From the NCBI GenBank assembly GCA_008802785.1, contig VUYT01000010.1:186001-250000 (forward strand): a DNA stretch of 64,000 nt. Reading direction: 5' to 3'. The position numbers and the translations under genes are program-made. Within the stretch, counting starts at the first letter, position 1, and each line of letters opens with the position of its first letter. This stretch comes from Symmetrospora coprosmae. Taxonomy: Eukaryota > Basidiomycota > Cystobasidiomycetes > Symmetrosporaceae. The notes under the pieces are model-generated. The model did no database searches and was not told where the DNA came from. It worked only from the letters and a program-made list of their open reading frames with translations. Of this stretch, positions 50,989 through 63,836 are shown one piece after another.

Positions 50989-51160
50989 TTATCGGTGCCG
51001 TGCCTTCTTTGTCTCATGACCTGGAGGAGATGGCGAGGACCGTGGAGAGCTCGATGGTGCCGGACGGCGGATTGCACCACCATCAGAGGGTGCTGCGGAC
51101 GATCGGGTAGGAGGCGGTTGGTGAGACGGTGCTGACAGAAATCGGCTCGAGGACGTAGAG

Positions 51161-51200
<40 letters not shown>

Positions 51201-54200
51201 GCTGTAAGCGCATCGAGACCCGGGTGGCACCCTGCGCGCTGACCGGAGGCTGACGGAGCGGAGACGACATAGGAGGGGCAGAAGCAGAGCGGCGGGCCAC
51301 GTCAGAACTAGTGCTTGATGGAGAAGGCGAGCGCTGTCGCGCGGTAGTCGCTTGTACGTCGAATGCGCGGTCAAGACCGCCGACGCTCATGAGCGACGAG
51401 CTGCGCGGACTGGCGCTCCGATATCCGCCCATCGGCGGAGGCGACCCTCCACTGCCCGAAAGAGGGCTGTGCATGACGGACTGCATCGGTGCGACCCCCG
51501 AGCCCCGGGGGGATCCACCGAACAGACTGCCTACAGAGCCAAGCGGACTTGGAGTCCGGTCGCCGCCCTGAGACGGCCTGATACCCGCAGAGGCAGAGCG
51601 GCGTCCTACGTCTGGTCGGCTCCCCGAGGCTGAGCGCGAGGGAGGCACCCAGCCGCCGAACCCTGTGGACTGCAAGAGGAAGGCCGTGTCACCGAGACCT
51701 AAGGGCGAACCGCGCGCGCTGGTCGAGCGCGATTGTGGGCTTCTGGCAGGGTGATCTGACCGTGCTGAAGGCGCTCTGTCCAAATTTGCAGATGAGCCAG
51801 CGAGAGGGACACCTGTCGGCACTCCAATCCGATGGACGGCGGAGCTGCTAGTTGCCGTTACTGCCCGACGAGGTGAGGTACCTGTAGATGAGGGAGGGGA
51901 CGACAAAGACTGGGGCGAACCGGGGGAGGTAGCGAAAGGGCCCATAAGGCGTGTTATGCTGGACGACCGCACTTCAGCGGCGGGTGAGGCCGGCTGCACC
52001 AATGGTGCAGCACCTCGGGAGCCAGACTGCGCCTCTCTAAGCCTAGCGCGGCCTCTTTGCTTGCCACCTGACGACGCCTGAGCATGCTGTGGGGCCTTGA
52101 ACAGTGCGGACCGCACATCTCGACTTGGCGGTACGGCGGATCGAGACATCTGGATCCATCGTGCATTCGGCACGCCCCTGTACGCCGGCTTGCTTACCCA
52201 GATTTTGTCCAGCGGAAGTACACCAAACCGTTTTCGAGGATCGTAGTCTTGCGTTGCGGCTAGGTCAGCCACAGCATCGTATCTGGGTATCTTGCCATGA
52301 GCCGTAGCCTGATGTCCATTTCGCTTGGCCACGGTCTTGAAAGTTCGAGGACTGCGGGAGCACGGCGGCGTATTGTCGGCAAGCTAGATTCAGCTACATT
52401 CCACGATCGTGGCGAGTTCCTGCGCTGCTTTATCTCACCAGTGACTACAAGGCCAACCATCGATGCACAATTCGCCAGACTTTTCGATCCAGAGGGGTGG
52501 TTTGCCTTCCTTGCAGTCCTTCTGGTGTAGCGAAAAACCTTCGGTCGATATACCCGGGAAGCTCTGGTAGCTGCATGACCGCCCATCGTCAGGTTGGTCG
52601 TCGTATTGTATACAGACCGCGAGCAGGTGTTAGACTCACCAATGTAGACACACCACCTCATTATCTCCTTGCTCTACGTTACCTTCAACATACGCTTTCA
52701 CTGGGGCAAGCAGCTTGGAAAGCGCCAATGCAGATGCGTCTGCTCCGTGGGCCGCACTCGAACCAAAATCGCGATGCAAGCCTGGGGAGCCTCCGTGCGG
52801 CCCAGTCGAGCCACGCTTCCCGGATGATGGGCTTTGAGCGGATGACGGAGAAGAATGGCGCGAGGGCTGTCCGGACTCTGAATCCGATCGGATGCTTCCA
52901 CCAACGAGCCCCTTGTCTGGCTGTGGCGCAAGAATCCATCCAGCGTTCTCGTCTGGCGTGAGTGGTAGAAGCTGGACCCATGCATGACCCGCGCCGAGTC
53001 GCTTTCGCGGATCGGGCTCAATGCCTTTTTGGGGGTCGTTTGTCACGTCCCGAAAGGCACCCTGGCCGTGTTTGGCTTGCCGATGTTCACCACGAGCTCT
53101 CATCGTCTTCGACGGGTTTTTGCGACTGCGAGAACATTGGAGGCGCGAAGCGAGTTGCAGTTAGTGTTGCACTACAGATGACTGGGGCTGGCTTGTGGAC
53201 GGCTCACCAACGCTCTACTTCACACGGCCAACCGACAATGTGCAGTTCGTCGCCCTTCCTTTTCCAAATGGGACGCCATCCTTTCACGCAATGTGACCGA
53301 TGCTTGCCGAGCGCCTTGGTGCTTGGGAACGCCTGGAAACTGAGCACGGATGGTATCTCAGCCCAGCGTTCAGGTATAAAGCAACTTTGCGGTTGTCTGA
53401 TGAAAGAGCCTACCAGTGAGAGCATATGTGCTCCTTAACTTTGGGTACAACCGTCGAGACGGCGACTCCCACCGGTACAGCGTGCGTATCGAAAGCTTTA
53501 GGCTCTCGGAGCTCAAGTTCCGCTTGAGACGGTTTGTACAAGCCCATTCCGCCATGCTTTGTCGAGCTATGGCCACTGCGTTCGCGGGCTCCGGGGAAGG
53601 TCCTCGCACTGATACGACGGTCATGCAAGGGGAGGGTCAAGAAAAAAAACGAATGCGTCCTAAGACGGGTCACGGAACCCTAGCTGGTTTAGCGCAGCTG
53701 CACCCACCAATGAGCACATGGCCAATCTAGGATAAACCAGCCATGCCCGATGTCAGTCAACTTGTCAGATTCTTGAGGGCGATATGTCCATCGAGGACTA
53801 CGTCGAGTAATAGTATTTGATCTCGAGTCAGTGGCCAGTGATGAGCGTTCGTAGTGCCTCAGCCCACCGAGGTGCGCCCTGACACGTCACGATGTGACGA
53901 ATCTTCGCAGTAGAGGAAAAGGACTCCGGAAAGCGAACAAAGCTAGCCATGCAGCATATTGTGTGGGTGACACACGGATCAGCGGGATGAAACAGTCGCG
54001 AGCGTACCTACTCTACTCACCACCACTCGCATCTCGTTGCGCTTCCCCAGTCAGGACCGTGCCCACTAGCTGGGATTGGCTCTTCCGAACTGGGTTGCGC
54101 CTGTTTGGGGCCTCTGCCGTTGTGTGCCTTGTTCCAGTGTTTAGTACGTCCTCGCAAGGACTTGAGATTAACGAGGCTATATTGAGAGACGCGTGCGGCT

Positions 54201-54499
54201 TTCAGCATGGGAGGCTCCGTGAAGGACAGGTCCGTGTGTGTTCTTGGCGCAGGACGTGCCGGTTATTTACCATTCGGAGTGTCCGCATGGCCACCAAAGC
54301 CGGCCCTCCTTGTCCACTATAGGTTGAGGTCCCATTGTACACAAATGCACATGACGGTCGAGTTGTTCCTTGATATGCCCTTTGCTAGGCCCGTGGAGGA
54401 CAGTTGCCGCTGATGTCAATGGCCTGAAGCCTCGGATTGTCAATCTCAGTACGCAAGATAAGACACGTACCAATGATCGCATGTGCCCCCTGGTGCCAT
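50989..54499 (-). CDS. Alternating C2HC/C2H2 zinc-finger repeat protein 1 (unrecognised family, 8 units)
   Basis: Ten exons: 54499-54471, 54384-54271, 54176-54021, 53942-53868, 53797-53708, 53608-53414, 53339-53208, 53125-52640, 52570-52439 and 52351-50989 (923 residues). It starts MAPGGTCDHC. Units alternate: a Cx2C...Hx3C finger (CFQAFPSTKALGKHRSHC follows ICSH), then a linker with GxxPxW...ELxIxGWPC, then a finger whose first Cys is in WPC, ending Hx4H (CPRTFKTVAKRNGHQATAHG after WPCSH). Two C2H2 exons continue with DPQxxxxxDPRKRxG and NAGW/NARW. All introns are phase 2 and all but one split a finger Cys codon. The last exon is a ~450-residue Ser/Pro-rich tail with 13 Gln and a basic end (TKKARHR). 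Probably nuclear and nucleic-acid-binding; that is inference. Confidence 0.82.
51161..51199 (-). repeat. Poly-Gln-coding (CTG)n repeat in the zinc-finger gene 1 tail
   Basis: Thirteen uninterrupted CTG/TGC triplets on plus that read as CAG (Gln) on minus, followed by CCGCTG. Located in the disordered C-terminal exon. Confidence 0.9.
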
Positions 54500-55098
54500 G
54501 CCTCTTTGCGATGTCAAGAGCGGAAGCGAGCGAGATTAGCGGTAAGAAAGGAGCGAAGAGCGGCTGTCCAATCTATTGACTTTGGTTAGATAGCGGAAGC
54601 AGAGAGACGGAGGAGCCTCGCGGGCCAGGACAATGCACTCGAGGCCAGACAGGACGGGGACTGTCGAGTCGGTGCACTTTTGTCAGACATTGCAGGCGCT
54701 GCCAGATTGCCCGACAGGCACGATAGCCTGGGAAAGCTCGATCCGGACGCCGGGGGCGCTCTTCATCTTGAGGATGCAGGAAGAATACAGGCACTTGCAT
54801 GGATGGCAAGGAGCTTGTATCCGTTTTCGAAGCAACATGCGCCAGGATGGACATATCCGCGCACGGGCTCTGTCAGTCGCGAACGGTGTCAGCGGGAGCG
54901 GGAGGTCAGCTGCTGCTCGGTCAAAGGATGTTAGTGAGACTGCAGTCCTTGTTGAGCAATACACCTGAACGCGGTCGTTGGATGCTCAGCTGTTCTTGCG
55001 TTAAGTAATTTAGTGCGGAGAAGCCAGAGGTGCGCCTGCCCCGGCCGCTTGACCTGCAGCTCGCATCATCGTCAGTCTCGAGGTTAGACTCACACGCG
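54500..55098. promoter_or_regulatory. Divergent region, zinc-finger gene 1 (minus) / small gene (plus)
   Basis: 599 bp with open frames on both strands, none recognisable. It should hold both promoters. Confidence 0.45.
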
Positions 55099-55503
55099 AT
55101 GACGGACACGACCAGCACCGCCAGCACGCCGTCAGCCGGAGAAGGGAGCAGCGGCAGCAGCAGCACGCTCAAGGAGAAGCTGCATCATATCGGCGAGAAG
55201 GTGAGGCTGAGGGCGGAGAAGCGCGTGTCAACTGGAGAAGTGGCGAGCGGTGAGCTGACGGACGCCAGGGATGCCCAGCTCGCTCTAGTGCCGCCCACGG
55301 ACAAGGAGGTCGGTCGTTGCTGCGTAGTTCATTTTCAGACGCAGGCCCTCAGCTGATGCCTTTGCCGTTGCCATCTCCCATGCTTGCAGCTGTCTGACCG
55401 GATTGAGGTCGCGCGTGCGAACGGCGACGAGGAGGCAGAGAGGAAGCTGCTCATGAAGCGGGCAGCAGCAGGGCAGGAGGCGGCGACGGATGCCAATGAG
55501 TGA
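55099..55503 (+). CDS. Small hypothetical protein, helical and charged
   Basis: Exons 55099-55308 and 55390-55503 give 107 residues: a Ser/Thr-rich start (MTDTTSTASTPSAGEGSSGS), then a charged region likely to form helix (TLKEKLHHIGEKVRLRAEKR) and an Ala/Glu-rich end (KLLMKRAAAGQEAATDANE). The intron has GT-AG ends (GTCGGT donor, TTGCAG acceptor), phase 0. No family recognised. Coding status rests on the spliced frame and biased charged composition. Confidence 0.5.
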
Positions 55504-56099
55504 TGCGCACAGTAGGGGTGTCTGCTGCTACACAGTATGGCAATGCTGCTGTTTTGATGCTGTTCTGGCTGACACCTCCTCGAACGCGTCGCCTCTGTGC
55601 TCAGGCTCAGCCGTTCTGCTCTGACCCAGCCAGGCTTCCATCTGCACGCACGCCATCGCTCGTTGTATCCATGCATGCATCGCAACCTCGTTCGCTGTTA
55701 TATCTGCCCTTCTTGCACACATGCTCCCTCCTCTCTCCCCCCTGCGTTCAGGTCACCTCCTCTAAAGCCGTAGTGCGCATTCCGCGGGGAGCCGCGAGCT
55801 TGTGACGTGCGCGACGATGGGGATTGGGGGGGTCTCACCCGAGAAGACGGAGAAGGGACAGGAATAACAGCAACGCACTGGCCAATATCCTCCTCTCCTT
55901 CGCTCCTAACAGTTGCCTCCCGTCCTTTTCCATTCGCACCTGCAGGTCTCATCAGTCTGGTCTTCGCCCCGCTCGCGTCCGTGTCCGTCCCCATCTACAT
56001 CTCCGGCCCGTCCACACAACTTCTACGCTTGCGAAGATCCGTTCGCGCACGCTCTTTGATCTTATCGACAGCTCGACAGCACCTTCCACCCTTGGAGTA
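55504..56099. promoter_or_regulatory. Upstream region of the aspartic protease
   Basis: 596 bp between two plus-strand genes; pyrimidine-rich near 55900-56090. No gene supported. Confidence 0.45.
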
Positions 56100-58120
56100 A
56101 TGCTTTGCTCACTCTCCACCACCGCTCTTGTCCTGCCCCTGCTCGTCTCGGCGGTTCCCTCGCAAGCCCGATCCAACACAATCACCCTGCCGCTCGTCCA
56201 GCGCGACCTCAACATAGACGTACAGGCCGGGCCGATCGACGCGTCGCTCGATGTCGGAGGCAGCTGTCCGCCCCGCCTGAGCCTCCACCTCGCCAACTTC
56301 GCCTGGCTTGAGCGCATCAAGCGCACCGTCTCGTCTCGCTACAGCAAGCCGACGGTCGAGCAGGCCTCGGCACTTGCACACGCTCAGTCGCAGCTCGAGG
56401 GAGACACCGCTGTCTCCGCACTGCAGAGCAGGAGGCGCAGTGCGCCCGTATCCGACGGCGCGGGCTTGCATGAAACGGGACAGGAGACCGCTGGCCGTAG
56501 GCACAGGAAGGCAGCGAGGAGGGCAGAGCTGGCCCTCAAGCGAGGCAATGGAACGGTTCAGTCCACACAGGGCGCTTCCAACGCCAGTTTCGCAAGCGAA
56601 GGAGAGACTCGCTCGGGCAGCGTTGGTCTCGAGGACTATGTTGTCTCGCACGAGGACATGGACGTGAGTGCCCTGTAGGCGGACGGACGACGCACTGGAG
56701 TAGACTGACTGATGCACGCTCTCGTGCTTGCAGTTCATGGCTATCGTCAAGTGAGCGGTCTGCTTCTGCTGCAGAACCAGACCGGCCTCAATTGACAGAG
56801 CGTTCTCGCTTCCACAGCGTCGGCACTCCTCCTCAGCCGTACAAGCTCATTGTCGACACGGGCTCCTCCGACCTCTGGGTCCAGAGCGCGTCCTGCACCA
56901 ACTGCTCGCGCAACCCGGACCGCCTCGCCCCCACCGACTCGAGCACGATCAAGAACCTCAACGGCACCTTCGACATCCAGTACGGCATCGGCTCGACGTG
57001 CGTACCTGCTTCCTTGCTTGTACGCGACGAGAACGGGCGGACTGATGCTGTTAACTCGCACAGCTCGGGCGACCTCTACGAGGACACGGTTAGCGTCGCC
57101 GGCTTGACGGTCCCGAGCCAGACATTCGCTATCGCAGACGAAATGTCCGAGGATTGGCTGCAACAGCCGTGAGTACATCTGCCTGTCACTCATCCACGAC
57201 GTAGCTTACTCGCACAACTGCATACCGTACAGAGCGAGCGGCATCCTCGGCCTCGGCTTCCAAACGACAGCTAAGACCCGAGCGCCCCCATTCTTCAAGA
57301 ACCTCGCTACTTCGAACAGTCTAGCAGAGCCCGTCTTCTCCTTCGCATTTGGGCGAGCGAACGACGGCACGCAAGATCAGTCGAGCATGACTATTGGCGG
57401 AACTGGTGCGTTCGCCTCGCTATTCGTTGACGAGGATCAGAGCCGACCTTCTCGCTCGCTACTACAGACCGGAGCAAGTACACCGGAGACATCGCCTACA
57501 TCCCGGTCGCCGACCCAAGGCTGTACTGGCAGCTGAATCTCGCCAAGATCGCAGTCGGCGACACGGCCGTTACCCTACCCGGCAACAGCGAGACCGAGTC
57601 GGGCGCGAGCTCGGGCCCACGGCAAGCCATCGTTGACACGGGCTCGACGCTCATCTCAGCAAGCCCGGAAGACGTGGCCGCCTTTTGGGGCGCCGTTCCT
57701 AACGCGACGTACGACGCGTACGGCAAGTACTGGACGTACCCGTGCGCCTCGGAGGTCCGCGCCAGCTTCACTTTTGCAGGGCGCGAAGACATGCCGCTCT
57801 ACATCAACGAGACGGACCTCAACTTTGGCCGCGTCACGGCGTTCAGCAACAGATGCGTCGGCGCCATCGTCGAGGCTGATACGGCAGGGCTGTGGGTGCT
57901 AGGTCTGACATTCCTCAAGAACTACTACACGGTGAGTCGGGGCACTCGCGGTTTGGAATCTTCGCATGCTGACTGCAACCTCTTCTCTGCTCTGCTCGGC
58001 GCTTCAGGTGTTCGATCAGGGGAATTTTCAGAGTAAGCCACTCAGCACGGAGGAAGCTCAAAAGCCAGCTGATCCATGCTAATCCCCGCTCCAGTCGGTT
58101 TCGCTACACCCACGTATTGA
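56100..58120 (+). CDS. Secreted pepsin-like aspartic protease (A1)
   Basis: Eight exons: 56100-56663, 56734-56750, 56818-56997, 57064-57168, 57233-57405, 57468-57931, 58008-58032 and 58095-58120 (517 residues). Signal peptide MLCSLSTTALVLPLLVSAVP. An unusually long ~165-residue propeptide contains basic pairs (RRHRKAARRAELALKR) suited to Kex2 cleavage. The mature domain begins near FMAIVNVGTPPQPYKLIVDT, with catalytic DTGSSDLWV and second catalytic DTGSTLIS. Also LPGNSETESGASSGPRQAIV, WVLGLTFLKNYYT and VFDQGNFQIGFATPTY, the normal end of the fold. A 17-nt exon bridges propeptide and mature domain. Likely extracellular or vacuolar; N-glycosylation sequons (NGT, NCS) are present. It lies between the two zinc-finger repeat genes. 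Confidence 0.92.
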
Positions 58121-58294
58121 GCAGGTCTCTGCGTCCTGCGGGAGCAATCCAGGCTACTAGGCGGTCCGCTTGTTTGAGGGTCTCTGCTGGTCACGGCCCT
58201 TCGCAACATATTTGCAGCACAGGTGGCACATACACATAACGGAGAAGACAGTCATAAGCTGTATCATAGCTCTTTTTTTTTTTCAGGCAAGCTG

Positions 58295-61200
58295 TTACGA
58301 TCCATTTCCGGGCTGCTTCAGCCATTCCCAGACTTTGGCTAGAGGATGAGCGCCCGGCGATTCTGCGCGTGCTGAGGGAGGAGTGCGTGACGCTAAGCGC
58401 GGCCGCTTTTCACGCTGAGCGTGTCCAGAGGCGGAGTTGGCGCTGTTGTTCGAAGGGGTGGAAGGATGCGGGCGAGCGCGAGAGGCACCGGGCGCGGCAA
58501 GATGCGCGCTTCCGCTTGGCCGCACTGGAGGCGAAATCCGACTTTGCGGACCAGGTGGCACGCTCGTCCGTGAAGGCGAGTGGGACCCAAAGAGGGGTGC
58601 ATTGAGAAAGCCGTAGGAGCCGCTACTGAGACTCGATGCGCCGGAGGCCGGTCGCGGCGCTTGGCCAACCGAGTGGTGAGCAGGACTGCCCTGTCGACTG
58701 CCGGTCCAAGACCCGCCAAAGAGAGGTGGTGGCTCTCGCAGATCCAAAGCGCCGTAGCCAGAAGATGAACGAGACGCAGCCCGCAATGGTGGCGTAGCAT
58801 CCGGTCTCCACTGCTGAAGACCATCCCAGGTAGGACTGTGTTGCCCAATACTGGGGCTGTGCTGCCAGTTGGATGGGCCTGGCTGACCCAGAGCCGGAGC
58901 AGGCGCAAGACTGGGCTGGCGACTCGACCTGTAAGGTCCGGCAAGGAGGGCGCTGGCTGCATCAATGGTGCCAGCACGTCCACACGGGCCGCCACGGCCC
59001 GCCTGCTCGGTGCGCTGTACCTCCTGGCTCCCGGCCGGACCTTGCGGGGGCTTAGGTCTAGCCTTTCCTCTATATTTATGCACGCGATTCGGACGCGGAG
59101 TTGTGTGCTCGAACTTGTGGTGCTTGAGTTGTATGTGCTTGTTTCGATGGTGAAGACTAGGGAAATCCTCCTCGCTGGTACCGGCACACGGCCAGAGCGA
59201 CATCAGTAAAGCCAAACGATTTAGTAAGTCTTTCATACGGCCTGGATCAGCAATCTTCCATCTCAGACCGTACTCACCAGCCTCCAATTTTACACGGCCA
59301 AGCAACCGTGCCGTCCCGTTTGACTGGGGGCTCACCAGCTGTGCAACTTGCCTGATGGCGCAAGAAAGCTTGTCGCGTGCGGCCCACGAAATCCTTTCCG
59401 CTGTCCACCAGGAGACCAGTTCCGCACAGGAGCAATCATGTCAGATGAGTCGCCGGCTCGCCTGCGAGGGTGCTCACCAGGAGGAGCAGACACCTTGATG
59501 GGGCACTTTTTGATGGCGATTCCGTCCATTGAGCGTCGGAAAACGGCGATCGCTGGCGGACGCAGCGAAAGAGGCAGTCATGAGTGGAGAGGCTCAGCCG
59601 CTATCTAGTTTGCCGAGTTGCTGCTGTCTGCTGTACTGACCATCCTTGTACCCCACATGGCCAGACTTGACGAATTCCATTGGGCGTTTCTTCATTCAAG
59701 GGCAACTCACCACTAGTCGAAAGGCACACAAGGCAATGCTGACGGTAATAGGACGCTCTGCTGCGGGAAAAGCGTCGCGAGCTGTTCGCAAAGGTGGCTC
59801 CTCGCTCAGCGGGGCGCGTGACCACGACGAACTGATCCAGATGGCAGACACCTCACCATGATGGGCAAATGAAGACATCATTTTCTGCTTTGTGCGCAGG
59901 TCCCGGCATTGTACCGAATGGCGCGTCCGATGCTGATCCGTTGCTTGCTGCCGAATGCGCAGCAGCGCTGCGAGACCGAGTACTGCTAGACATACGAGTT
60001 GGCAAGTCAGGCGAGGCACGAGTTGGAAAGTCGAGGCCGCCAGGAAGTGCGCCGGGTGTCTGTTGATAAGCACGCTCCGGGCTGTGGCGCCGACCGACAT
60101 TCCCTACAGGCTCCAGCAATGGGACAGGCTCGCGTAGGTCCAGCCAGTGCCGCCCGGAAGAAAAGCTCGAGCTGGCTCTACGAGAACCAGCGCTAGCCAT
60201 GGGTGAGGGCGAGTGCCTCGCGCTCCACACGGGGCTGCGTGCGAGCGACGGCATAGCTGCGTCCACGGAGCTTCGCTGGAGTCCCGCAAAGAGACTGCCA
60301 ATAGAGCCAATAGATCGCCCTCGTAAGTGCTGGCCTGGAGTCTCGTGGCCGCGTGGAAACGATCTGCTGGCCGGAGAGGCAGACCGCGTTTTCGGAGACG
60401 AGCGTGACCAGGCGACACCGGACATCGGCTGGTAGAGGAAGCCTACCGAACCCATGCTCATGGCGGAGGATTGACTGAGACCTGGCGAAGGGCGATTAGC
60501 CAGCGTTGGCTGAGGAGAGTGGTGGAGGTCCCGAGCTGCTGCGGTGGCGGCTTGCGTTCGGACGGGCGTGCCAGCGCGACTATCAAGTCCATTGCCAGGG
60601 TGACCAGGAGAGGAGGTTCTCGACGCAGACACTGCAGGAGAGAGGGAATTCCTCATCGACCTGGACGATGCGGTCTCGAATCTCAGCAGGTGAGCCGAAC
60701 TGAGCGACCGCAGGGAAGGTGCCGGGGGAGACGGCAGCTCAGGGGCAGTGTCGCCTCTAGTGTCAGTTGACAACGCTCTACTCCGAGCGCGGCCACTGAC
60801 GGCGTCCCTGTCCGATATCGGCTGACTTTGCTGTCGAGCCTCAACTGTTCCGGACCGCACGCTGCCTTCCTGCTGTACCGTGGACCGAGACTCCAGGAGC
60901 CACCGGGCATTCGGCTCTCTCTCGGTTGCAGGCTTGCTGACCCACATCTTCTTTGAAGAAGATGCGCTGAAGCGCCCTCGGGGATCATAGTCTCGCCCTG
61001 CATCAGACGCCGCATCGTATCTGGCCATCTTGCCGTGAGCCGCAGATTGGTGCTCATTCCGCGCTGCCAGAGTGACGAAGTTTTGAGAACTGTGGAACGA
61101 AGCGAGTCGACAGCAAGTTTGGATGATATCTCGCAAAGCTGCTTTGAAAGTAGCTGTGCCTGTGCTTTTTGCTCACCAGAAACTGCACGGCCAATTGTCA

Positions 61201-63836
61201 ATTCGCAGTTCGCTGCCGACCTTCTTCCGTATTGGGCGTTTGCCTTCCTCGCATTCATCTCTGTGTTGCTTGAGGATTGCGTTCGGTAGGCTCGGGAAAC
61301 CTTGGTAGCTGATTGTACCATCATCAGCATGTACAGAGGGACTGAATGTAGCAGCATGATGAGCACACAGAAAAGGCAGGCAGGCACCCACCAATGAGAG
61401 CATACCAGCCCCTTATCCTGTACTGCTTGGGATGAATCGCGACGAGGTGATGCGCTCTCCGCCCTGACCGTGCGCTGCGGCACAGAAGAAGGCTCGGGGG
61501 CGTAGCCGGGAAACAGGTATCCCGAAGGCTGGGCACCGCGCCGATCTCCTTGACCCGAGCGAATCGCTTCGTCATATTGAGGGTTGAGTACCCACCCCGC
61601 ATTGTCGGTTTCTCGTTCCGGTCGTTTGCAGATCCATGCTCGCGTCGATGAGCCTGGTGCTAGGCGCTTCCTTGGGTCGCACTCCATCTGCTCCTGCGGA
61701 TCCCTCGGCACCCCGTGTACGAGTAGTTCCTTGTGCTCCCTGAACCGATGGATCCCACGACCCATTCTTGTTGGGAATGTTCTAGGGCTACAGAATGACA
61801 AAACGGAGAATGGCAATCAGTGGCATGTACTGGTTCGGGGGAAAAGATCGTCCGCTGTGGCCTCACCAGCCGGCGCATGGCCAATAGTCAATGAATAGTT
61901 GGTTGACCTCACGCTTCCAGACGGGACGCCAGCCCTTTACGCAGCTTTCTTCGTGGCCGCGATGGGATGATTGGATAGTAAAGCCTTGGAAACTGCATAC
62001 GAACGGCATAAGAACGGAATGTCAGCTGAGCGCGTGTCGAGAAGAACAGGAATGGAAGCTAGGCGGCAGGAGGAGCTAACCAATGAGAGCAGACAAATAC
62101 TTCAGCTGCAATTCGGCCTCGGGGCGGCCAATCTCCCGTGCGAAGATCCCGATGGACGGCAGTCGCATCTCTTGACTCGGAATCGCGAATCCATCCGGCA
62201 TTCTGTGCTGGATCACTCGGCAATAGCTTAAGCCATCTCAGTTTCTCGCCAAAGCGCTTCCGTGGATCATATCCAGGGTTTTCTTGAGGATCTGCCGAGA
62301 TAACGTAGGCGGCATTCCGACCGTGAATCCGGGTACGATGAACGGCACGACTACGCATTGTCTTTGACAACTCAGAACTAAGATGAGCGATAGAGCGCAG
62401 AAAAAATTCTGTGTCAGCCGCCGAGGGCCTTGTATGAGGGATCTGAGATCGCTGCGGCCTCACCATTGCCCGCCGAATTCGAAGACCTCGCATGGCCAAC
62501 CGACGATGCGGAGTTCGCGACCGTCAGCTTTCCAGATGGGGCGCCACCCCTCTTTACACGCTTTCAGGTGCCTCGCTGCAATTTCTGCATCGCCGAAAGC
62601 CTGGAAACTGTAGAGCGTGTTCTAGTCTCAGTCGCATACGCTGGCTATGGCAAGCCGCCAATTTGAGGCTAGAGACGAGCACACACCAGCGAGGGCATAC
62701 AGATGCTTCGGATGTACTTTTGATATCGATAGGCTGCAACTGCGTCCGGTAATCTCGGGGCTCGCTGATCATAAATTCCTCTGGGGCCGGTTCGTATGAT
62801 CCCGCTTGGTGGTGCGACTGTCTCAGATGTTCCATGCGCCCACGACAGCTCTTGAGATGCACCGTACTTCATCGCGGGCATCGCGATCAGGAATCGCGGG
62901 CATCGGGATCAGGAACAAATTGTGTTGGCAGGGGCGACGTGTAAGCCCGCCGAACGCTTCGCAATCTTCGCGTTCGTAGCCCACTCAAGTGCGGTCAGAC
63001 ATACCACAGGGCGCAAGGCCAGTCTCGGATGTACCAGTCGTGGCCGATACTCTGCAGTGTAGCAGAACCCTCTTCAAGTTTGGCCCACCTGGGACTGCAA
63101 CGTGCAACGATGTCCAGTCAGATGGAGACGAGAGCCTGACTGCCGTGGTCGAGCTCACTGGGGTCCGCTCTTGCACTTGTCCGTGTGACGGGTTCTTGCA
63201 GCATGGGTCAGGTGCTGTGCGAAGATTTCGAAGCTTGACCATTTACGGAAGATGTGATTCGAGCGCGTCTTCATCCGAGTCAGACACCCATGGCAGCCAG
63301 TTGCATTCCACCCATCGCCACTCACCACCAGGAACACCGATCTGAGCTTTCCCAAGGGAGTTCTTCTTGACCACCGTCATGATCTCCTGCTTTGCGGTCG
63401 TCTGGTGGATCGTGAGGGCCTCTGCCGCCGTGGTCGAGCGTGTAGTGTGTATTACGTCGTGCCATACTCTTGAATCTCCTTTCGTCTCCGGGACCTGCTT
63501 GACTGCATTGTACGGACAGTACGCGCTCTTTAGCATCACGCAGCACTCGAGAGCCGCACGGTTGTGCGCCTGTATGCTAAGTAATCAAGGACGCTCACCA
63601 TCCGGGATGCCCACATGGCCACCATACCCGACCTGTCCCGTCCTTGACTGGCGGGGGTCCCCTAACACATCGCTTATGGTGAAGCAGAAGGTCCCTCGGG
63701 AGTTTCTCCTTGCTTAAGCGTAGGACAGGCAGAGATCGAGGGTGTCAGTGGACAGCGAATCGACTGCGCGGCTCGACGTGCAGGGCACATACCAGTGGTC
63801 ACATGTACCGCCCGCTGACATTGTTGGCGCGCTCAT
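58295..63836 (-). CDS. Alternating C2HC/C2H2 zinc-finger repeat protein 2 (unrecognised family, 14 units)
   Basis: Sixteen exons: 63836-63793, 63712-63599, 63502-63326, 63233-63159, 63094-63005, 62866-62687, 62607-62464, 62377-62081, 61992-61867, 61787-61392, 61308-61177, 61089-59857, 59781-59641, 59552-59478, 59400-59278 and 59174-58295 (1408 residues). It begins MSAPTMSAGGTCDHC. Seven Cx2C...Hx3C units (e.g. CFQGFTIQSSHRGHEESC) alternate with seven C...C...Hx4H units (e.g. CSQNFVTLAARNEHQSAAH). WPC precedes most of the latter, and three carry a DPRKR/DPRGR linker. Exon 12 adds ~380 Ser/Pro-rich residues and still ends in CPSC, so the gene continues past its apparent stop. The terminal exon is again Ser/Pro-rich and ends WLKQPGNGS. 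All 15 introns are phase 2. Upstream exons outside the window cannot be excluded. Confidence 0.82.

Follow-up and report, generated by a model that had tools for sequence, protein, structure and literature searches.

Two neighbouring predicted genes, denoted G1 and G2, that lie in the window (the entire 64,000-nucleotide stretch analysed here) encode proteins in which two types of zinc fingers, C2HC and C2H2, follow each other in alternation, and the question is how such arrays are built, how they could have arisen and whether they represent a new kind of zinc finger protein. The sequence itself shows the open, mutually consistent gene models, the unit structure and the paralogy of the two genes; the exon junctions, and hence the Cys codons split by introns, are predictions.

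The end points of the two genes given in the first-pass annotation (50989..54499 and 58295..63836) are exactly those obtained on re-splicing (Table 1). The junctions were sought as TG donors before GT and AG acceptors before C/T, with no unbiased gene finder involved in the models, and because this search favoured phase 2 in Cys codons, it partly predetermines the split Cys. A single frame-keeping acceptor exists for 6 of the 22 finger donors and, for most of the others, the first acceptor in the list was used; for intron 10 of G2, the second acceptor was chosen from likeness to the paralogue, and two donors before linker introns had no listed acceptor, the joins being placed by hand. The predicted introns of both genes are 64–138 nt long.

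Table 1. Predicted features of G1 and G2 (positions in the window).
Feature	Coordinates	Strand
G1, whole gene: 10 exons, 9 phase-2 introns, 923 aa (predicted model)	54499..50989	minus
G1 exons 1-3: pair 1 (C2HC CDHC..HVHLC; C2H2 WPCGHSEC..HWNKAH) and Cx2C of pair 2	54021..54499	minus
G1 exons 4-6: remainder of pair 2, Cx2C of pair 3	53414..53942	minus
G1 extra linker intron, same position as in G2	53867..53798	minus
G1 exon 7 (module exon): second half of C2HC-3, hairpin linker (GWRPIWKRKGDELHIVG), WPC start of C2H2-3	53208..53339	minus
G1 exon 8: second half of C2H2-3, DPRKRLG and NAGW, spacer, Cx2C of C2HC-4	52640..53125	minus
G1 exon 9: second half of C2HC-4, linker, WPC of C2H2-4	52439..52570	minus
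G1 exon 10: second half of C2H2-4, DPRKRFG and NARW, low-complexity tail, stop	50989..52351	minus
G2, whole gene: 16 exons, 15 phase-2 introns, 1408 aa (predicted model)	63836..58295	minus
G2 exons 1-5: pairs 1-2 up to WPC of pair 2; correspond to G1 exons 1-5	63005..63836	minus
G2 linker intron (within the exon 1-5 region)	63158..63095	minus
G2 exons 6-8: remainder of pair-2 C2H2, pair 3 (WPC-x8-C; DPRKRFG and NAGW), Cx2C of pair 4	62081..62866	minus
G2 exons 9-11: remainder of pair 4, pair 5 as far as the WPC knuckle	61177..61992	minus
G2 exon 12: second half of C2H2-5, DPRGRF and NARW, internal tail, Cx2C of C2HC-6	59857..61089	minus
G2 exons 13-16: remainder of pair 6, pair 7, C-terminal tail, stop	58295..59781	minus

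Judged by their sequences, G1 and G2 are paralogous, and their exons correspond: exons 2, 4 and 5 measure 114, 75 and 90 nt in both genes, and the proteins encoded by paired exons are 25–56% identical. Across eight exon pairs (369 aligned codons), there are about 165, 140 and 211 differences in the first, second and third codon positions, respectively; the third position is the most divergent in five pairs, tied in two and not in one, and its excess is significant compared with both the second (chi-square p = 2.5e-7) and the first positions (p = 9e-4). The C-terminal tail of G1 is rich in Ser, Pro and Arg, with a polyQ stretch and a basic KKAR end, whereas G2 has two tails, an internal one after pair 5 and another at the C-terminus. 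The internal tail of G2 is homologous to that of G1; the best match in the alignment of the three tails has an E-value of 2.4e-22, which is soft given the low complexity and the contribution of the DPRKR/NARW segment in which the match begins.

The strict alternation of C2HC and C2H2 fingers, eight in G1 and 14 in G2, is unbroken on re-splicing, so that G1 consists of four C2HC-C2H2 pairs and G2 of seven. All 11 C2HC units conform to Cx2C-x10..15-Hx3C, and all 11 C2H2 units start with WPC, with a Cys-Cys spacing of 2, 4 or 8, and end with Hx4H, in line with the first-pass annotation. When the residues of both proteins were shuffled 2000 times, the mean numbers of matches were 0.02 for C2HC and 0.001 for WPC-C2H2 (at most one of each), compared with the 11 and 11 that were found. 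The distance of 12–13 residues from the second Cys to His holds for 10 of the 11 C2H2 units, including the last unit of G2 (x12), and fails in the first unit of G2, where it is 18; an alternative listed acceptor would give 6, and none of those listed gives 12. The motifs outside the ligand sets turned out to be less general than proposed in the first-pass annotation: C(V/K)xGxxPxW is exact in five of the 11 linkers, ELxI is present in four, and DPRKRxG, far from being shared by all units, follows three of the 11 in the strict form and five as DPR(K/G)R. Arg is found three residues before the first His in all 11 C2H2 units, and L, F or Y occupies this position in 7 of the 11 C2HC units. The fingers contain 57 of the 61 Cys residues of the two proteins and are separated by gaps of 14–29 aa within pairs and 3–389 aa between pairs, with no TGE(K/R)P linkers in either protein.

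The alternation is best described as one composite C2HC-hairpin-WPC-C2H2 unit repeated 11 times, rather than as 22 independent placements. In the tree of the units, u1, u2 and u3 of one gene group with u1, u2 and u3 of the other, respectively, with one of these three branches passing both support limits and the program issuing a warning of long branches. The two types of fingers mostly score poorly against each other's profile, so the case for their common origin rests mainly on the intron position.

In the predicted models, the codon of the second Cys is split TG|Y in 22 of the 22 fingers, and all 24 introns of the two genes are in phase 2, the phase that the junction search favoured in Cys codons. 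Since all introns are in the same phase, each of the 141 possible exon skips keeps the frame, and 125 of these restore a Cys at the junction; in these models, joining an exon to any one further downstream would leave the frame intact. Intron phases are mixed in the neighbouring protease gene, where three of the seven introns are in phase 2, and in a classical C2H2 gene located in the same window, three fingers detected by pattern and a fourth one recognized by eye are unsplit at this Cys. Gain or loss of exons is accordingly predicted to stay in frame and mostly to rebuild a zinc site.

The first-pass annotation was aware of no described family of this kind, a point that was checked here against Pfam, PDB sequences and the open-licence literature. 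No Pfam family reaches its cut-off in the 1471 residues scanned, i.e. the finger-bearing parts of the two proteins (584 of the 923 aa of G1; 678 and 209 of the 1408 aa of G2), and no description of the alternating architecture was found in the titles and abstracts of the open-licence papers searched. The Pfam result is weak evidence because the scanned part of the plain classical C2H2 gene in the window misses the cut-off as well (23.5 vs 25.2 bits). Scanned singly, C2H2 units reach an E-value of 7.5e-4 at best (20.5 vs 27 bits, given for the first member only) and C2HC units 9.6e-4 or worse, with 5 of the 11 C2HC units weakly matching zf-C2H2_4 (best E-value 0.0015). In the PDB, the C2HC profile retrieves solved classical fingers, namely, those of ZBTB17 (5.7e-7), PRDM9 (9.3e-6) and CTCF (2.6e-4), and the C2H2 profile reaches solved fingers weakly (GLI, 0.026). 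By these matches, the C2HC fingers belong among the classical beta-beta-alpha fingers; the C2H2 fingers are diverged. Given the position of the C2HC profile, the layout of G1 and G2 arranges a known fold in a new way, which qualifies the claim of novelty.

An AlphaFold2 model of the G1 module exon alone (mean pLDDT 75, pTM 0.42) shows a helix (residues 7–16) and a hairpin (24–28/31–36); it contains the helix half of a finger, each finger being divided between exons. Foldseek with this 43-residue model detected nothing convincing (best E-value 3.5), the module-exon profile had no matches in the PDB, and phmmer with 410 residues gave a best E-value of 2.1 there; the model of the DPRKR module (pLDDT 56) is unusable. 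A PDB match of a second profile to AcrIF23 (0.038) was taken as chance. A transposon origin was dropped, as Pfam detected neither a transposase nor a reverse-transcriptase domain in the scanned parts and the PDB gave only weak matches (0.22) to a reverse-transcriptase-like protein. Within the window, the unit profile, at the sensitivity used, matched only the open frames of G1 and G2, and tblastn matches outside these genes have E-values of 0.30 or worse. Short-peptide pattern searches, which reach close relatives only, were run against two non-fungal collections: in IMG/VR, the three-exon and two-exon alignments yielded 28 and 44 matches, respectively, none confirmed, and in GTDB, one of the 54 pattern matches (27 residues of a bacterial contig, 45% identity) was judged to be due to chance.

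Such genes can escape the usual zinc finger searches. A survey of 30 Basidiomycota picked its candidate C2H2 genes by PF00096 (PMC12295980). This family is unlisted even at E <= 10 for residues 1–584 of G1 and 1–678 of G2 and appears with an E-value of 0.015 in the scanned 209 residues close to the end of G2. A survey of this design would thus probably miss G1, with G2 being a borderline case.

Taken together, these observations give a roughly even chance that G1 and G2 are multi-zinc-finger regulators with separate, multivalent pair modules, the arrays of which come from exon-cassette duplication. This is the most likely reading, and in it the two proteins are specific to their lineage and act in the nucleus through pairs of fingers that are set apart and bind multivalently. 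Under this scenario, G1 and G2 would be paralogous nuclear genes of a fungal-type genome, and the repeat unit would comprise a C2HC beta-beta-alpha finger of the classical type, linked by a short beta-hairpin to a diverged C2H2 finger that opens with W-P-C, and followed in 5 of the 11 units by a DPR(K/G)R...NA(G/R)W segment. The unit would be borne on symmetrical phase-2 exons, with the boundaries in the codon of the second zinc-ligand Cys of each finger, and the arrays may have grown through duplication of exon cassettes by recombination in introns, which would keep both the frame and the alternation; the layout thus points to a route for copying a two-finger unit with both intact. Zinc binding is suggested by the ligand spacing and the profile match, and nuclear location by short basic stretches. 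Each pair might be a module in its own right that binds either nucleic acid or a partner protein, the four to seven modules on flexible spacers would provide for multivalent binding, and the proteins would act in the nucleus, regulating transcription or chromatin.

The uniform intron phase also fits a gene that mixes and matches, i.e. one where alternative splicing at TG|Y joins half-fingers from different units into hybrids with an altered type and specificity. The exon skips that are all in frame and mostly restore Cys, along with the unsplit fingers of the classical gene, speak for this reading, but tandem duplication of cassettes accounts for the pattern without any skipping, and the introns are short, a length at which skipping of exons is not known to be common in fungi; this reading is quite improbable. 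The broader version, a splice-modular system in which interchangeable exons yield hybrid fingers (C2HC/C2H2 halves or swapped units) via either alternative splicing or intron recombination, is improbable too; if true, it would define a gene family with a built-in capacity for combinatorial change of binding specificity. That G1 and G2 are decaying or non-functional copies is hardly credible: the low identity of the paired exons and the odd spacing of 18 in one unit could be read this way, but the combined spliced frame is open over 2331 codons with 22 complete ligand sets (in models chosen to be open), and the third-position excess between the paralogues is also at odds with decay.

G2 could, in principle, be two genes, a five-pair gene ending in the internal tail and a two-pair gene beginning inside exon 12. 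The similarity of this tail to the end of G1 is compatible with such a split, as are the Met that precedes the Cx2C of pair 6 by 14 residues (the start Met precedes the first Cx2C by 6 residues in G1 and by 11 in G2) and the identity of only 23–34% that places pair 6 among those least similar to the other pairs. Exon 12, however, has an open frame of 410 codons that reaches the split Cys codon and, when left unspliced, meets its first stop in the donor itself, leaving no intergenic space; because of this long open exon, we read G2 as a single gene and consider the split unlikely. A possible, although doubtful, alternative to the regulator scenario above is a FOG-like cofactor, with fingers that recognize proteins rather than nucleic acids and bridge a DNA-bound factor and the chromatin machinery. 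The mixed C2HC and C2H2 fingers, mostly wide apart and lacking TGEKP linkers, would suit this role, and both types occur also in FOG1 (PMC4146578). The CtBP-type motif P-x-(D/E)-L-(S/R/K), however, has no match in either protein, and no recognized partner domain was detected in the Pfam-scanned parts.

Among the known systems, the classical fingers (zf-C2H2 group; CTCF, ZBTB17, PRDM9) share their ligand spacing with most units: C-x2,4-C-x12-H-x3,4,5-H is exact in 8 of the 11 C2H2 units, the exceptions being C-x8-C (unit 3 of G2), x13 (unit 3 of G1) and x18 (unit 1 of G2). Classical C2H2 fingers carry an aromatic residue two positions before the first Cys, as do the C2H2 units of G1 and G2, and a hydrophobic core residue, usually Leu, three positions before the first His, where all 11 units have Arg instead, which argues against ordinary DNA-reading fingers. 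Furthermore, classical DNA-wrapping arrays employ TGEKP-type linkers, whereas in G1 and G2, the fingers form hairpin-linked pairs that are mostly far apart.

The C2HC finger of the MYST family has the spacing Cx2C-x12-Hx3C and is not known to be repeated in MYST proteins. Its Pfam family (PF17772) is weakly matched by 3 of the 11 C2HC units scanned singly (best E-value 0.00096) and scores 17 vs the cut-off of 28.8 bits in the scan of the finger-bearing parts, and no acetyltransferase domain was detected in the scanned parts of G1 and G2. The fingers of FOG1 are not known to alternate strictly. This animal protein (FOG1/ZFPM1) resembles G1 and G2 in mixing C2HC and C2H2 fingers, nine in all (PMC4146578), and differs in carrying a CtBP motif as well as a PR domain. 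No such motif or domain was found in G1 or G2, where the fingers begin as early as residues 7 and 12, respectively, too close to the N-terminus for a PR domain to precede them. In gene structure, the closest parallel is with the LRR genes of Tetrahymena, where tandem symmetrical 90-bp exons with more than 96% of the introns in phase 2 are explained by exon duplication and shuffling (PMC6564038). Near-total phase 2 between repeated exons is common to the two systems (24 of 24 predicted introns in G1 and G2), but the Tetrahymena system involves LRRs, a uniform exon length and thousands of genes, whereas in G1 and G2, the codon that is split is that of a zinc-ligand Cys.

G1 and G2, two zinc-finger genes predicted in the window, encode a known fold arranged in a new way; of the new-looking protein plan proposed in the first-pass annotation, the arrangement stands but the fold is a familiar one. 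The strict alternation of C2HC and C2H2 fingers (8 in G1 and 14 in G2) is real, and more orderly than had been reported. All 11 C2HC fingers have the form Cx2C-x10..15-Hx3C. The proposed plan of the C2H2 fingers, WPC-x2/4/8-C followed by Hx4H, likewise holds, except that one of the spacings between these elements is 18 residues, not 12–13. Shuffled G1 and G2 proteins yield almost no finger matches, and 57 of the 61 cysteines of the two proteins lie inside fingers. The other motifs are less general than claimed: 5 of the 11 linkers match C(V/K)xGxxPxW exactly and 4 match ELxI, while the proposed DPRKRxG linker, in the looser form DPR(K/G)R, and NA(G/R)W are each found after 5 of the 11 units.

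Zinc-finger genes and their neighbours in the window
Feature	Start	End	Strand	Remarks
G1	54499	50989	-	10 exons, 923 aa, predicted
G2	63836	58295	-	16 exons, 1408 aa, predicted
Aspartic-protease-like gene	56100	about 58120	+	between G1 and G2; seven introns
Classical C2H2 gene, separate from G1 and G2	36769	34259	-	one finger after TGERPYTC linker
Pfam-matched genes				include dehydrogenase E1 component, fructose-1,6-bisphosphatase, protein kinase, NDUS4

The window contains ordinary fungal-type nuclear genes, with 7 of the 10 long open frames scanned matched by Pfam. The gene with DTGSSDLW and DTGSTL, which we take to be aspartic-protease features, provides a same-window control with intron phases of 0, 2, 2, 2, 1, 0 and 1. 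A second control comes from the classical C2H2 gene, whose fingers are unsplit at the second cysteine (three by pattern, the fourth by eye).

The junctions of G1 and G2 are predictions because the search favours split cysteine codons and because several introns have more than one frame-keeping acceptor. Donors were sought as TG/GT (the slash marks the splice site) in the frame where TG opens a Cys codon; acceptors were sought as AG/C or AG/T and had to keep the frame open. A consistent exon chain was obtained in both genes, and the end points assigned to them earlier were reproduced exactly by re-splicing. The main support for the predicted junctions is the agreement between the paralogues. 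The first exons are short and similar (MAPGGTCDH/C and MSAPTMSAGGTCDH/C), the second pair carries in both genes one extra phase-2 linker intron at the same place (before PRW), and several matching exons are equal in length. Eight pairs of paralogous exons, covering 8 of the 10 exons of G1, align over 369 codons, of which about 165, 140 and 211 differ at the first, second and third position, respectively (counts rebuilt from rounded fractions); the third position is the most divergent in five of the eight exons and tied in two, but not in exon 3. Despite the large divergence (amino-acid identity of 25–56% per exon), the third-position excess supports coding and purifying selection.

The exon layout that carries the finger arrangement is unusual and testable. 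In the predicted models, all 22 second-cysteine codons are split after TG (TG/Y) and all 24 introns are in phase 2, the two outside the finger cysteine codons being the linker introns. Because of this uniform phase, all 141 possible exon skips computed from the models remain in frame, and the cysteine is rebuilt at the junction in 125. For 15 of the 24 introns, the codon immediately following would be a stop if the intron were retained, as expected from phase-2 introns with donors beginning GTGA, GTAA or GTAG. The pattern is taken in the first place as a footprint of cassette duplication; these genes may also use exon skipping. The longest of the 24 introns is G2 intron 5 (138 nt), where a 22-bp unit in two copies (62871..62915) directly precedes the exon 6 acceptor.

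The repeated element appears to be the two-finger pair, a C2HC finger, a hairpin linker and a WPC-C2H2 finger, and copying of such pairs would produce the alternation. Leave-one-out tests separate the two classes of finger: 21 of the 22 fingers score higher with the profile of their own class than with the other, the exception being the C2HC finger of G2 unit 6 (3.6 bits versus 4.2), with a near-tie for that of G1 unit 1 (4.7 versus 3.6). In a tree of the units, built on a short alignment with a program warning of long branches, the first, second and third units of G1 group with their counterparts in G2, only the second-unit branch passing both support limits. This grouping and the equal exon lengths point to a shared ancestor that already had several pairs. 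The G1 region after the last pair is homologous to the internal G2 region after pair 5 (2.4e-22, starting in the DPRKR/NARW segment), and the G2 C-terminal tail is weakly similar to the internal one (0.003), both E-values being softened by low complexity. Ser, Pro, Gly, Arg and Ala are abundant in all three tails, and that of G1 includes 14.7 consecutive TGC units (51161..51204), read as polyQ. The last two pairs and the tail of G2 may have been gained by further duplication or fusion; for this reason too, G2 might instead be two genes.

A PDB search with the C2HC profile returns classical fingers, including ZBTB17 (5.7e-7), PRDM9 (9.3e-6) and CTCF (2.6e-4), among the best 60 of 64 matches (E<=10); with the C2H2 profile, GLI appears at just 0.026 among 13 matches. 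In classical fingers the third residue ahead of the first His is Leu, and an aromatic residue stands where WPC has its Trp; in the C2H2 class the Leu position is occupied by Arg in all 11 cases. For G1 exon 7 alone (53208..53339; second half of the third C2HC finger, linker and WPC start of the third C2H2 finger), AlphaFold2 predicts a finger helix and a beta-hairpin linker with moderate confidence (pLDDT 75, pTM 0.42, nine sequences).

No Pfam family reaches its cut-off in the parts scanned, which are G1 residues 1–584, G2 residues 1–678 and a segment of 209 residues around pairs 6 and 7 of G2, and which take in only a minor part of the low-complexity tails. The best match in these parts is DUF7565 (1.9e-4, 22.2 versus 27.1 bits at cut-off), and single fingers give at best 9.6e-4 (C2HC, zf-MYST) and 7.5e-4 (C2H2, zf-C2H2_4). 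Caution is due, as the neighbouring C2H2 gene has an ordinary classical finger that likewise falls below the cut-off in the part scanned (23.5 versus 25.2 bits). No description of this finger layout was found in titles and abstracts of the open-licence literature searched. We infer that the two proteins most likely act as regulators in the nucleus, their finger pairs being set apart and multivalent. The closest known protein with both C2HC and C2H2 fingers is FOG1 (PMC4146578). Neither the PR domain nor the CtBP motif of FOG1 is found in the G1 and G2 proteins. For the intron layout, the nearest published analogue found is that of the Tetrahymena LRR genes, in which 90-bp exons are flanked by phase-2 introns (PMC6564038).
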